Assembly (NCBI GenBank): GCA_902762795.1 | Contig: CACWPM010000004.1 | Span: 1-64,000 of the forward strand | Reading direction: 5' to 3' | Length of the DNA: 64,000 nt | Source of the DNA: Fibrobacter succinogenes | GTDB taxonomy: Bacteria > Fibrobacterota > Fibrobacteria > Fibrobacterales > Fibrobacteraceae | Part shown: positions 36,713 through 41,527 of the stretch, piece after piece | How the letters are laid out: each line of letters begins with the position of its first letter | Position numbering within the stretch: the first letter of the stretch is position 1 | Position numbers and translations under genes: made by a program | The notes under the pieces: generated by a model | What the model saw: only the letters and a program-made list of their open reading frames with translations | The model's database searches: none | Told to the model about the DNA's origin: nothing

Positions 36713-37912
36713 ATGATTACACGTACTATCGATCGCAATTTTGCCAACATGCGCCTTGACCGCTTTCTTCGCAAGGCGTTCCCCGAAGAATCGCTCTCGG
36801 TTTTCTTCGCCGTCATCCGCAAAAAGAAAGTCCGTGTAAACGGCGTTGTCGGCAAGGCAAACCAGATGCTCGTCGAAGGCGACGTGGTGAACATTTACGA
36901 GAATTTCAAGTCGGTAAGTGAATCAGACGAGATGAGTATAAAAGGGGAAAGCCTTCCCCTCGCTTCCGCCGCCGAAGCGGCTCCCGCTACCCCTTCGAGC
37001 GGGGCCACACCACCTAAAGGTGGCCATGCCCACATAAGTGCTGAAGCACTAAGTGGTCAAAGGCCGCAACACCCCATTGCAAAAAACGCAACAGGTTTTG
37101 CTAAAAACAAATCGACCTGGGGCAAAACATTAACAGGCGCTGAGAAACAAGCGCATTGGGGTGCGCACGAGCTCGAGTTCATCGTGCAAACGGAAGATTA
37201 CGTTATTGTCAACAAGCCCTCGGGACTCGCAAGCCAGCCCGGCAGCGGCACACGCCCGGGCGAAAGCCTTGTGGAATATCTTTGGGAATGGGGCCGTAGT
37301 GAAGGTCTCGATTTCAAGCCGACCATAGCCCACCGCCTCGATCAAGAAACTTCCGGTCTTATAATTGCGGCTCTCCACGGCGATACGCTCCGAGACTTCA
37401 CTCGCATGATTCGCGAACACGTTGTAGACAAGTTCTATTTCGCACTCGTGAAAGGCAATCTCAAAAAAGACCGAGGCACTATCAACGAATCGCTTTTGCG
37501 CACAGATAACGCCAAGGGCAGCAAGATGCTCGTTGGCAAAGATGACGAAAACGCACAAAAAGCCATTACACATTACCGCGTCAAACAACATTACGAAGGC
37601 TACGATCTTGTGAAAATCAAGCTTGAAACAGGCCGAATGCACCAAATTCGCGCCCACTTCGCAAGCATCGGACACCCGCTTTTGGGTGACACGCGCTATG
37701 GCGATTTCGCCCTCAACCGCGAAGTCAAAAAATTGTTCGGATTGAACCGTTTATTCTTGCACAGTTGCCGCCTAGAATTCGATTGGAACGGCGAACAAAA
37801 AGTATTTGATTGCCCGCTCCCCAAAGAACTGCAAAGCGTAATTAAGCAACTGAAGCCGCTCCGCATCGAACATCCCGAGAACAACTTCGAAAAAAGCCAT
37901 CGCCGCAGGTAA
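36713..37912 (+). CDS. RluA-family 23S rRNA pseudouridine synthase
   Basis: The 399-residue protein has an N-terminal S4 RNA-binding domain (about 5-65: MRLDRFLRKAFPEESL, KKKVRVNGVVGKANQML) and a catalytic domain with HRLDQETSG (catalytic Asp), KFYFALVKGNL and TGRMHQIRAHFASIGHPLLGD. The closest type is RluC/RluD, modifying 23S rRNA. Between the domains, residues about 78-140 are non-conserved and encoded by stacked palindromes (36944-37072). The family is normally near 320 residues, so the extra length is this linker. A heptad array touches its start codon. Confidence 0.9.
   Translation: MITRTIDRNFANMRLDRFLRKAFPEESLSVFFAVIRKKKVRVNGVVGKANQMLVEGDVVNIYENFKSVSESDEMSIKGESLPLASAAEAAPATPSSGATPPKGGHAHISAEALSGQRPQHPIAKNATGFAKNKSTWGKTLTGAEKQAHWGAHELEFIVQTEDYVIVNKPSGLASQPGSGTRPGESLVEYLWEWGRSEGLDFKPTIAHRLDQETSGLIIAALHGDTLRDFTRMIREHVVDKFYFALVKGNLKKDRGTINESLLRTDNAKGSKMLVGKDDENAQKAITHYRVKQHYEGYDLVKIKLETGRMHQIRAHFASIGHPLLGDTRYGDFALNREVKKLFGLNRLFLHSCRLEFDWNGEQKVFDCPLPKELQSVIKQLKPLRIEHPENNFEKSHRRR
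36944..37072 (+). repeat. Stacked palindromes encoding the RluA linker
   Basis: Five hairpins lie in a row inside the reading frame: GGGGAA-AGCC-TTCCCC (36944-36959), GCCGC-CGAA-GCGGC (36968-36981), CCCC-TTCGAGC-GGGG (36990-37004), CCACC-TAAA-GGTGG (37010-37023) and AGTGC-TGAA-GCACT (37037-37050). They resemble the mosaic block at 18730-18945 but are translated. Confidence 0.7.
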
Positions 37913-38037
37913 AATCGCCAGAACAAAATCGAGCTAGTAGTCTGAAAAATCAAAAAGCAAACCTCGGAACTGCGCATAAAGCTCTTCTGCACTATGCTTT
38001 TTTTAGAACCTGTTTGTTTCAGCGCTTATTTATTTCT

Positions 38038-38296
38038 GTACCTATAAAACAGATTACAACGAAGTTTTATAGGTATCGAGCATACTTTTTTTTATTGCGT
38101 ACCTATAAATCGCCCAAAAATAACACTTTATAGGTACGTTTTTCCATTTTTACACACAAGCTAAGTCCAAAACCACCTATAAAAACGAATCTTTTCATTG
38201 TTTATAGGTACAAATTCAATCAAATTCGCCTTTTCAAATCGAAAAAAGACTGTTTTGTACCTATAAAAGTGAACAAAACAATAATTTTATAGGTAC
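38038..38296. repeat. Array of four inverted-repeat units, TACCTATAAAA type
   Basis: Four units each consist of an arm related to GTACCTATAAAA, a spacer of 15-17 bases and the reverse-complement arm: 38038-38075, 38099-38137, 38175-38209 and 38257-38296. The spacers differ in sequence, while arm orientation and spacing are constant. Centres are about 61, 74 and 84 bases apart. The units fill the 490-base gap (37913-38399) between the convergent rluA-type and helicase genes, and no gene is visible in it. Confidence 0.8.
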
Positions 38297-38399: not shown

Positions 38400-40856
38400 T
38401 CAAGTCGAAGAAGACACAAGCGGAAAATCGAATTGTATCGAGCGCGGGGTCGCGAACTTGTCAAATGTAATTTCATAGCAAAAATTCTTTTTATCGACAG
38501 CGCTAACCGTTCCGGCTCCAAAAATCTTGTGCACCACGCGATCGCCCACCGCAAATTCCGCCGTAGGCGCCTTCTTTACCGCACCGAGACTTTCGTCTTC
38601 ATCAAAATCATTCATCAAATCGCGATTGCGGTCCGCTTCCGCAATAAAATCTCGAGCCGCCAAAAGCAAATCGTCCGAAAAACCGCGCACAACATCGAGC
38701 TCGCCCATATCCATTTCGAGCAAAAATCTCGACGGATAGCGCGATCCGCCCTCGCCTGCCACACCATCTTCGGCATCGCTCAGGCAAAGCACATTTTCGG
38801 CACGCGTGAACGCCACATACGCAAGCCTGCGTTCCTCTTCAAGCTGAATCTTGTTCTGCACACGCTTCACCGGGAAAAAGCCCTCGTTCAAGCCGCACAC
38901 AAAAACATACGGGAATTCCAACCCCTTCGCATTGTGGATAGTCATCAGCTGCACGCGGTCTTTTTCCTGCGTATCTTCGTCGGCATTCGTGAACAGCACG
39001 ATATTCTGCAAATATTCATCCAGCGACGCATCTTCTTCATAGTAATTCTCGAATTCGAGAATACCTTGTTTGAGCTCCGCGAGATTGTCCAAGCGGTCTT
39101 CGTCGCCATCCAGGCGGAGCATTTCCTCGTATTTCGTCTCGCGAAGCATCTTCGAAAGCAATTCCGAGACGCGCATATCCTTATAACGCGCGCGGTACTT
39201 TTCAATCAACTTCACATATTCAACAACATTACATCTCGACAAAAAATCCTTGCAATCAAAATCTATTTTACGACGGTCATTGCCCACCGACGAAAGTTCT
39301 GCCTGCGTCGTGACATCCGGCGCCACATCGTTCAGCCGCCCCGCCTCGTACACAATTTCAAGCAGGGCCTCATAAAGCCCGACACCACGCGTATCCGCAA
39401 ACGCCTGTAAAATCGAAAGCTTTTTCGGACCGAACTGGCGCTTCGGCGTATTCACAGTACGAACAAAAGACAAATCATCCGCATAAACTAACATCCGTAG
39501 ATAACAAATGACATCCTTGATTTCCTTGCGCTGGTAAAAGCCGACTCCGCTATAAACCTTGTACGGGATAGATTCCGACATCAAAGCCTCTTCGACAGAA
39601 CGCGACTGCGAATGCATCCGGTACAATACCGCGATATCCTTGTAATGCACACCACCCGCGGCCCCCTGCACGGAATTCTGCACCGCATTCTGGATGCGCT
39701 CCACAATCCAGCGCGCCTCTTCACGAGTGTTCTTCGCATGGTAAAAAACAGGCGTCTTGCCGCCCGCACGGACAGGCCTCAAGACCTTTTCTATCCGATA
39801 CTTGTTATTCTTGATAACCGCATCCGGGACCCTCAAAATACTCGAAGTCGAACGGTAATTGTTCTGCAACAAAATCGTCTTTGCGCCCTTATGGAACTCG
39901 TCAAATTCCAAAATGCGGTTGATATCCGCACCACGCCAACCATAAATGGTCTGATCCGGATCACCCACCACAAACAAATTCTTGTGATAACTCGAAAGCA
40001 AATCCGCCAGGCGGTGCTGTTGCCCGTCAATATCCTGGTACTCGTCCACCATCACGTACATCATACGCTTGCGCCACTTGTCAAGCTTCTCCGGGAAATT
40101 TTCAAGGATATAAAGCGTCACTAGAATCAAGTCGTCAAAATCGAGCGCGTAATTTTTCTTTTGTTCATAAAGATAACGGTAATAAACAGCCATCCACTTG
40201 TCCGGAGCGTCATCCGCAAGTTCCACCAAATGCTCGCGTTTTTCAACCGGCCCAGCGCCGTCCCGGAATGCCCCCGACGCATTTTCCGCTTCATAAGCAT
40301 TCCCTGCTCCCGACGCATCCCCCTCGTCCGCCAAATGCTCCGCAAACAAGGAAACATACCCGATATCACTGGCCTTGCGGCCCCCGACAAAATCAAGGAC
40401 ACTGCTGATTTTCAAATCCTTGAGCGAGAAGCCCAAATCCGCATACGCCTTGCGCAAAAGCGACTTCTGGTCGTCCTCGTCTAAAATCATGAATTCCTTC
40501 GGGTAATTCAGCACATGGATTTCCTCGCGCAAAAAACGCACGCAGAAACCATGGAATGTCGAAATGTAGCCGCTATCGTCGCCGCCCAAAATCGACCGGA
40601 TGCGCTTTTTCATCTCGGCTGCCGCCTTGTTCGTAAACGTCACGCAAAGAATGTTCGCAGGCGAAATCCCCATCTCCTTCACGAGATACAAATAGCGGTG
40701 CGTGAGTGTTCGCGTCTTGCCGGAACCCGCCCCCGCCACAACGCGCACGTAACCCTCGGTCGTCTCGACGGCCTCCAGTTGTTCCTTGTCCAAGCGGGAA
40801 CGCTCCCATTCCAGGGATCTTTCAACAACATCGCTATTCTTCGGTGTACTTTCCAT
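38400..40856 (-). CDS. Second UvrD-type superfamily 1A helicase
   Basis: The 818-residue helicase has Walker A GAGSGKT (42-48), VMVDEYQDIDGQQ, GDPDQTIYGWRGADI, QLMTIHNAKGLEFPYVF and YVAFTRAENVLCL, the full SF1A set. It ends with a short Tudor-like domain (FAVGDRVVHKIFGAGTVSAV), as in PcrA. Unlike the copy at 1005-3572 it has no Gly/Ser/Tyr-rich region. It carries an insert near residue 185-215 rich in Ala, Gly and Glu (SGAGNAYEAENASGA). The ATG lies just beside a MITE-like element. Confidence 0.92.
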   Translation of the reverse strand: MESTPKNSDVVERSLEWERSRLDKEQLEAVETTEGYVRVVAGAGSGKTRTLTHRYLYLVKEMGISPANILCVTFTNKAAAEMKKRIRSILGGDDSGYISTFHGFCVRFLREEIHVLNYPKEFMILDEDDQKSLLRKAYADLGFSLKDLKISSVLDFVGGRKASDIGYVSLFAEHLADEGDASGAGNAYEAENASGAFRDGAGPVEKREHLVELADDAPDKWMAVYYRYLYEQKKNYALDFDDLILVTLYILENFPEKLDKWRKRMMYVMVDEYQDIDGQQHRLADLLSSYHKNLFVVGDPDQTIYGWRGADINRILEFDEFHKGAKTILLQNNYRSTSSILRVPDAVIKNNKYRIEKVLRPVRAGGKTPVFYHAKNTREEARWIVERIQNAVQNSVQGAAGGVHYKDIAVLYRMHSQSRSVEEALMSESIPYKVYSGVGFYQRKEIKDVICYLRMLVYADDLSFVRTVNTPKRQFGPKKLSILQAFADTRGVGLYEALLEIVYEAGRLNDVAPDVTTQAELSSVGNDRRKIDFDCKDFLSRCNVVEYVKLIEKYRARYKDMRVSELLSKMLRETKYEEMLRLDGDEDRLDNLAELKQGILEFENYYEEDASLDEYLQNIVLFTNADEDTQEKDRVQLMTIHNAKGLEFPYVFVCGLNEGFFPVKRVQNKIQLEEERRLAYVAFTRAENVLCLSDAEDGVAGEGGSRYPSRFLLEMDMGELDVVRGFSDDLLLAARDFIAEADRNRDLMNDFDEDESLGAVKKAPTAEFAVGDRVVHKIFGAGTVSAVDKKNFCYEITFDKFATPRSIQFDFPLVSSST

Positions 40857-41263: not shown

Positions 41264-41527
41264 TCAACTTGGCGAAATAGAGAAGTCTGGATACTTTTTC
41301 CATTCGGTTTCAAGCTTATCCATAAAGAGACCGGTAAACAGGTCTTTACGGCCCTCAAAATAGTACTGGAGCGTACTTACCAAAAGCGATTTTCCAAAAC
41401 AACGCGGACGTGACAAGAAATAATAATCATCCATGTGGACCATCTTGTAAATCAAGTCAGTCTTGTCCACGTAATACTTGCCATCTTCGCGAATTCGCGC
41501 GAAATCCAGCACTCTCTTTAACGTCAT
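41264..41527 (-). pseudogene. Truncated AAA-ATPase-like (PF09820-type) gene
   Basis: The 87 residues match the N-terminus of the large AAA-ATPase-like/DUF1703 family: a start region FARIREDGKYYVDKTDLIY, then FLSRPRCFGKSLLVSTLQYYF containing the Walker A-like region, and LFMDKLETEWKKYP. Full-length members have about 500 residues. Here the frame ends after SISPS and no continuation is found before the MITE-like element about 150 bases downstream. It is a remnant. Confidence 0.75.

Follow-up and report, generated by a model that had tools for sequence, protein, structure and literature searches.

Helically phased arrays of inverted arms in Fibrobacter and a putative cognate nuclease that may disperse them

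Why should four inverted pairs of nearly identical arms occupy the gap between two convergent genes in Fibrobacter succinogenes? The pairs lie in the window, i.e. the whole 64,000-nucleotide stretch of DNA that was analyzed, and the genome it comes from is referred to as G000. A first-pass annotation had described eight nearly identical arms forming four inverted pairs with spacers of 15-17 bases between convergent genes. This layout was borne out at 38039-38295: if each arm is taken as 11 bp long, the inner spacers measure 15, 15, 15 and 16 bp, and the neighbors are a pseudouridine synthase (36713-37912, plus strand) and a UvrD-type helicase (38400-40856, minus strand). Four of the eight arms are perfect copies of TACCTATAAAA while four have one mismatch, and in the left arm of the third pair the outermost base is C, not T. 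The features of the array and its borders are as follows.

38039-38295, no strand assigned: whole phased array, four inverted pairs of TACCTATAAA-type arms
38039-38075: inverted pair 1, arms 38039-38049 (plus) and 38065-38075 (minus), 15-bp spacer; a perfect pair in the genome-wide scan
38100-38136: inverted pair 2, arms 38100-38110 and 38126-38136; 61 bp after pair 1, i.e. 6 turns
38174-38210: inverted pair 3, arms 38174-38184 and 38200-38210; 74 bp after pair 2, i.e. 7 turns
38258-38295: inverted pair 4, arms 38258-38268 and 38285-38295, 16-bp spacer; 84 bp after pair 3, i.e. 8 turns
37853-38038: left flank, made up of about 60 bp from the 3' end of the pseudouridine synthase gene and of intergenic DNA; its homologue is carried with the array copy at G000:C5
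38296-38330: right shoulder, ...AACTTCA.AAT.GTCTTGAATTTT, common to other dispersed copies in an alignment of nine copies; approximate right end of the repeated element

Throughout the 64 kb, nine arm matches at no more than one mismatch were found where 1.03 were expected (the largest shuffle gave five), and a general scan of the window detected no further array of at least three inverted pairs. Elsewhere in the window, at 41264-41527, a short ORF aligns with no more than the beginning of PF09820, the Predicted AAA-ATPase family (positions 5-82 of a 201-position profile), and is therefore probably a truncated gene. The annotation had denied that the array is a CRISPR or a terminator, and we agree; CRISPR was rejected on account of the alternating inverted arms, their helical-turn spacing and the neighboring genes, i.e. 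pseudouridine synthase and UvrD-type helicase.

The distances between units do differ, as had been noted (61, 74 and 84 bp), but they are not free, corresponding to 6, 7 and 8 helical turns. Over all arrays, pair-to-pair distances fall at 61-64, 73-75, 83-86, 94-97 and 105-107 bp or at larger multiples. The best period was 10.65 bp for 39 distances in G000 (R=0.886, with a maximum of 0.535 in 2000 random sets) and 10.45 bp for 62 distances from other arm types (R=0.925, null maximum 0.455). Copies within one array family differ by whole turns (84 vs 95 bp), and the arms within one inverted pair are 26-27 bp, or 2.5 turns, apart. Since the distances are quantised at about 10.5 bp (61, 74, 84, 95), the arrays are most readily understood as double-stranded DNA read on one helical face and not as RNA or CRISPR, and the phasing points to a protein complex sitting on that face. 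Some clostridial arrays (L263, L264) repeat a nearly identical 74-bp unit, which suggests local tandem amplification by whole helical turns.

That the units act as structured RNAs or bidirectional terminators, the former being another guess of the annotation, seems scarcely credible to us. Each unit does fold as an RNA hairpin, with energies between -9.7 and -14.2 kcal/mol and z-scores between -3.4 and -6.0, as any inverted repeat would, but the loops are unconserved, the linkers are quantised to helical turns, arrays occur in every gene orientation, and no Rfam family matched at threshold (one chance match fell far below it). Furthermore, the arm words covary with the N-terminus of a protein, which is described below.

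By searching the 3.93-Mb G000 genome for ACCTATAAA-N13-23-TTTATAGGT we obtained 50 matches, and none with the reversed control. These perfect pairs group into about 15 arrays, mostly with three or four recognizable pairs each; the arms are not scattered as unpaired single copies, an outcome that the annotation had named as one that would speak against its reading. The arrays are intergenic and found in all gene orientations, with more in convergent (5) than in divergent gaps (2). Nine of them are homologous to one another over elements some 300-400 bp long, in which the arms are conserved. Pairs of the same type were identified in 14 of 61 genomes of the genus, and arrays with the same arms as in the window also occur in MAGs of Lachnospiraceae, Eubacteriales and Clostridiales. 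In viral contigs the arm pattern yielded single chance pairs only, with no array enrichment.

Comparing all genes around the arrays across genomes revealed one family that directly adjoins arrays in three genomes, namely G000 itself (L185:5452-6351), another Fibrobacter (L115:2661-3548) and a member of Clostridiales (L086:5298-6107). The cognate gene in G000 (G000:C37:6929-7747) encodes a protein of about 275 aa and has the same arms upstream of its start. The family received no assignment in Pfam, NCBIfam or PHROGs, a PDB search by sequence gave nothing convincing, and no transposase family scored above the cut-off. Its C-terminal part of about 110 residues, however, matches the end of the PADLOC entry PDC-S68 (E to 3e-24), and the same domain also ends helicases on plasmids. 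With this library match, the conserved motifs RSKSE, PDF and WEH, and residues E170 and E216 invariant and D201 nearly so across divergent members, we tentatively read the C-terminal domain as PD-(D/E)XK-like, its putative E...D...E(x)K core being placed at E170, D201 and E216, with no clear position for the lysine. In the G001 nuclease (L223) the otherwise nearly invariant PDF reads PNF, a possible natural active-site variant, and the arrays there are intact and dispersed.

Purifying selection acts on the nuclease (dN/dS 0.12-0.26 in the own-type clade, i.e. that of the G000 cognate nuclease), and its gene is often found at the same chromosomal site, a locus conserved in many species. Homologues were found in 41 of the 61 genus genomes, with up to seven per genome; the system is common in Fibrobacter (48 genus genomes in a phylum sample of 167) and occurs in Clostridia as well. 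A phage origin was dropped, and a phage or plasmid element is not indicated either: IMG/VR and PLSDB contained no full-length relative of the nuclease, and one match of 31% identity lay in a 4.2-kb phage record. G000 has additional paralogues at C23, C13, C3 and C9 (L319, L342, L372 and L379). Upstream of those at C23 and C13 lie arrays built on different words (TTACGTACT, TGTTACCAA), while the one at C3 has two widely spaced pairs only, and none were found for the one at C9.

Three or more pairs lie upstream of 82 out of 122 homologous nuclease genes from Fibrobacter and Clostridia, no farther than a few hundred bp from the gene start, and all 82 arrays are phased, phasing having been no selection criterion in a scan that required at least three pairs. 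The same scan found no such array for the other 40. Shuffled upstream sequence gave 0 arrays out of 122, and downstream windows 3 out of 44, some of which are probably real second arrays. Inverted-pair arrays also lie downstream of the gene in L239 and L266; in L239 the same word is present on both sides, as if bracketing the gene. The clostridial homologues share the layout of gene plus upstream array. The upstream words themselves differ, e.g. TACCTATAAA, GGGGCRTATAAA, TTACATACTAAA, ATGCATATAAA, TTACGGACTAAA, TGGGTATAAA, TTTGTAGGCTAAA and more, most arms consisting of a variable outer word and an inner TATAAA or ACTAAA.

Word and resident nuclease go together. For three words, co-occurrence with the cognate nuclease over the 61 genomes gave Fisher p-values of 1.1e-8, 1.1e-4 and 3.3e-8, which are optimistic as the genomes are related; mismatched combinations in these genomes were not significant. 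Because the nuclease of G001 has ATGCATATAAA arms, dispersed ATGCATATAAA pairs were predicted in that genome beforehand, and 12 perfect pairs were indeed found there (four at the nuclease and eight elsewhere), with two in G051, one in G039 and none in the other 58 genomes.

The pairing tracks the N-terminal segment of the protein. Among 57 non-redundant proteins, arm similarity correlated with similarity of this segment when corrected for the C-terminal part (partial r=0.48, p=0.0005), while the reverse correction left no correlation with the nuclease part (r=-0.035, p=0.76). The G000 and G006 proteins occupy the same locus, with a shared flank, and are 97% identical in the C-terminal part, whereas identity is 38% over the N-terminal segment and, at the DNA level, only 43% over the 60 codons that lead up to the shared part. 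The arms at the two genes are TACCTATAAA and TTACATACTAAA, respectively, and the G006 genome contains 26 pairs of its present word and six of the other. Variable residues fall in an LRxxxxxxxQYY stretch, which a weak AlphaFold model built from two sequences (pLDDT 48) renders as a beta hairpin leading into a long helix; as modeled, this arrangement is reminiscent of the three strands plus helix with which Tn916 integrase and AP2 domains bind DNA. We consider it very likely that the arrays are binding sites of this N-terminal domain.

Array positions turn over between closely related genomes. The window array has orthologues in G038 and G019, with 79 of 80 arm columns (99%) identical across the three genomes but only 75% of the spacers and 64% of the linkers; this retention in sister species argues against the chance origin that the annotation had kept in mind. 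Six close relatives (G045, G047, G051, G004, G014 and G001) do not have it. At ten other array loci of G000, no array is present in G045 or G047, where both flanks are mostly intact; G038 has an array at three of the ten. In array-free gaps of sister genomes (L300, L302 and others), different dispersed palindromes of the CCCGGAACAAGTCCGGGATGAC type were seen where G000 has arrays. In G045, G047, G051, G004 and G014 the nuclease locus still has its right flank but not the gene, and no own-type copy was found elsewhere in these five genomes.

A role in chromosome organization, where the array would be a parS-, matS- or SMC-loader-like site bound by a structural protein, would agree with dispersed, phased multi-site arrays under strong selection and with a gene at a conserved locus in many species. 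It is nonetheless very improbable, as the near-complete sister genomes G045 and G047 do without the own-type nuclease and all its arrays, and as a putative nuclease core is conserved while array positions are not. The rapid gain and loss of positions likewise tells against the replication or segregation site that the annotation had listed among its guesses.

One copy bears on how arrays arise. G038, G045 and G047 have no array at the C5 site; in G000 the array there includes about 60 bp from the 3' end of the pseudouridine synthase gene, i.e. the native flank of the window array, which shows both copying with flank and the direction of that copying. An imperfect direct repeat of 34 bp (79%) borders the C5 insertion, and two others have weaker ones. 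Flanking direct repeats exceeded the cross-pair background at only 3 of 15 arrays; none were found at most, and the element ends are ragged. Relic arrays that have lost their nuclease have 57-58% perfect arms vs 69-72%, which at these small numbers does not make them clearly more decayed. The array beside the nuclease gene does not stand out as the source of the dispersed copies.

Regulation is the strongest rival explanation, although we regard it as unlikely. The protein would here bind DNA as a regulator, and its nuclease domain would be vestigial or secondary; the upstream array would serve autoregulation, and the dispersed arrays would regulate other genes or titrate the protein. Where present, the array always lies upstream of the nuclease gene and close to its start, and helical phasing is typical of looped repression complexes, both of which would suit an operator network. 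Such a network is harder to reconcile with positions that turn over between sister species, with arrays in all gene orientations including convergent gaps, which in G000 outnumber the divergent ones, and with invariant nuclease-core residues across divergent members. Defense or genome protection, in which the nuclease would attack foreign DNA while chromosomal arrays store, restrain or activate it, we hold to be quite unlikely. It could draw on the PDC-S68 match, since that protein is a phage-defense candidate, on the same domain in plasmid helicases, and on specificity words that diversify fast, as in defense systems. On the other hand, the match covers the nuclease domain only, viral collections show neither array enrichment nor a cognate gene, and no partner genes were identified.

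We consider that the window array is probably a non-autonomous, dispersed binding array for the chromosomal, sequence-specific nuclease at G000:C37. The operator array that the annotation had suggested comes close to this in its protein-binding part, and so does its suggestion of amplified palindromic elements. Arm conservation, phasing, the pairing of word and nuclease, presence/absence polymorphism and one copy with a transduced flank can be read directly from the sequences. As for the most likely function, presence/absence, homology among copies and the transduced flank lead us to lean toward a nuclease that spreads its arrays as non-autonomous elements. Binding, oligomerization, cleavage and the copying or mobilization reaction are steps that we infer. 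The N-terminal domain would read the arms, with one inverted pair taking a dimer, and three to five pairs at whole turns would place the dimers on one DNA face, so that a complete array, but no stray single arm, would assemble a multi-subunit complex. The PD-(D/E)XK-like C-terminal domain would then cut or nick, and repair of the break could copy the array in trans to other intergenic sites, at times along with DNA from its flanks, while the nuclease gene itself would stay at a fixed, mostly vertically inherited locus. Specificity would change when the N-terminal module and the upstream array are exchanged jointly, and a fresh set of dispersed arrays would then accumulate.

A nuclease-plus-repeat system, each with its own recognition word, in many related bacteria looks undescribed, and no earlier description was found in a literature search outside which most subscription journals and all preprints lay. 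We give even odds to the boldest reading, a new class of bacterial system whose PD-(D/E)XK-like enzyme assembles on phased inverted-arm arrays and copies them through the chromosome, with one-step swaps of N-terminal module and upstream array and a Red-Queen-like turnover of the dispersed arrays. If the proposed reading is true, its many natural pairs of protein module and DNA word could be used to decipher a DNA recognition code, and what maintains dispersed palindromic repeats in bacterial genomes, an old question, would become directly testable.

Several known systems share parts of this pattern. Like MITEs, the arrays are short, non-autonomous, intergenic, dispersed and absent at orthologous sites, but they have no consistent terminal inverted repeats or regular short target-site duplication, and their conserved parts are the internal arms. 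The large candidate defense proteins of PADLOC PDC-S68 match in about 110 C-terminal residues, whereas the protein here is small and stand-alone, differs in its N-terminal domain and has cognate arrays. Phased operator and iteron arrays, e.g. repressor loops, replication iterons and plasmid centromeres, also have protein sites at whole helical turns; unlike them, the arrays described here are spread across the chromosome, and their arm word is exchanged in step with the protein module.

In REPIN/RAYT systems (TnpA-REP, REPtron), dispersed intergenic palindromes are accompanied by a separate low-copy enzyme with cognate repeats beside its gene, several enzyme/repeat types may exist per genome, and repeat word and enzyme co-evolve (PMC3116915, PMC8266576). 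The present system agrees in its dispersed intergenic palindromes, with the same repeat type beside the enzyme gene, in its several enzyme/repeat types per genome and in the co-evolution of word and enzyme. It differs in that the enzyme is putatively PD-(D/E)XK-like and not an HUH/Y1 (IS200/IS605-like) transposase, and in having phased inverted-pair arrays in double-stranded DNA instead of a REP hairpin with a GTAG-type tag; with both the HUH enzyme and the tagged hairpin missing, we do not class it as REPIN/RAYT. In its population biology it works like REPIN/RAYT, and if the proposed reading is right, it would represent a second, independently evolved answer to the same way of life, with a different enzyme fold and a double-stranded DNA geometry.
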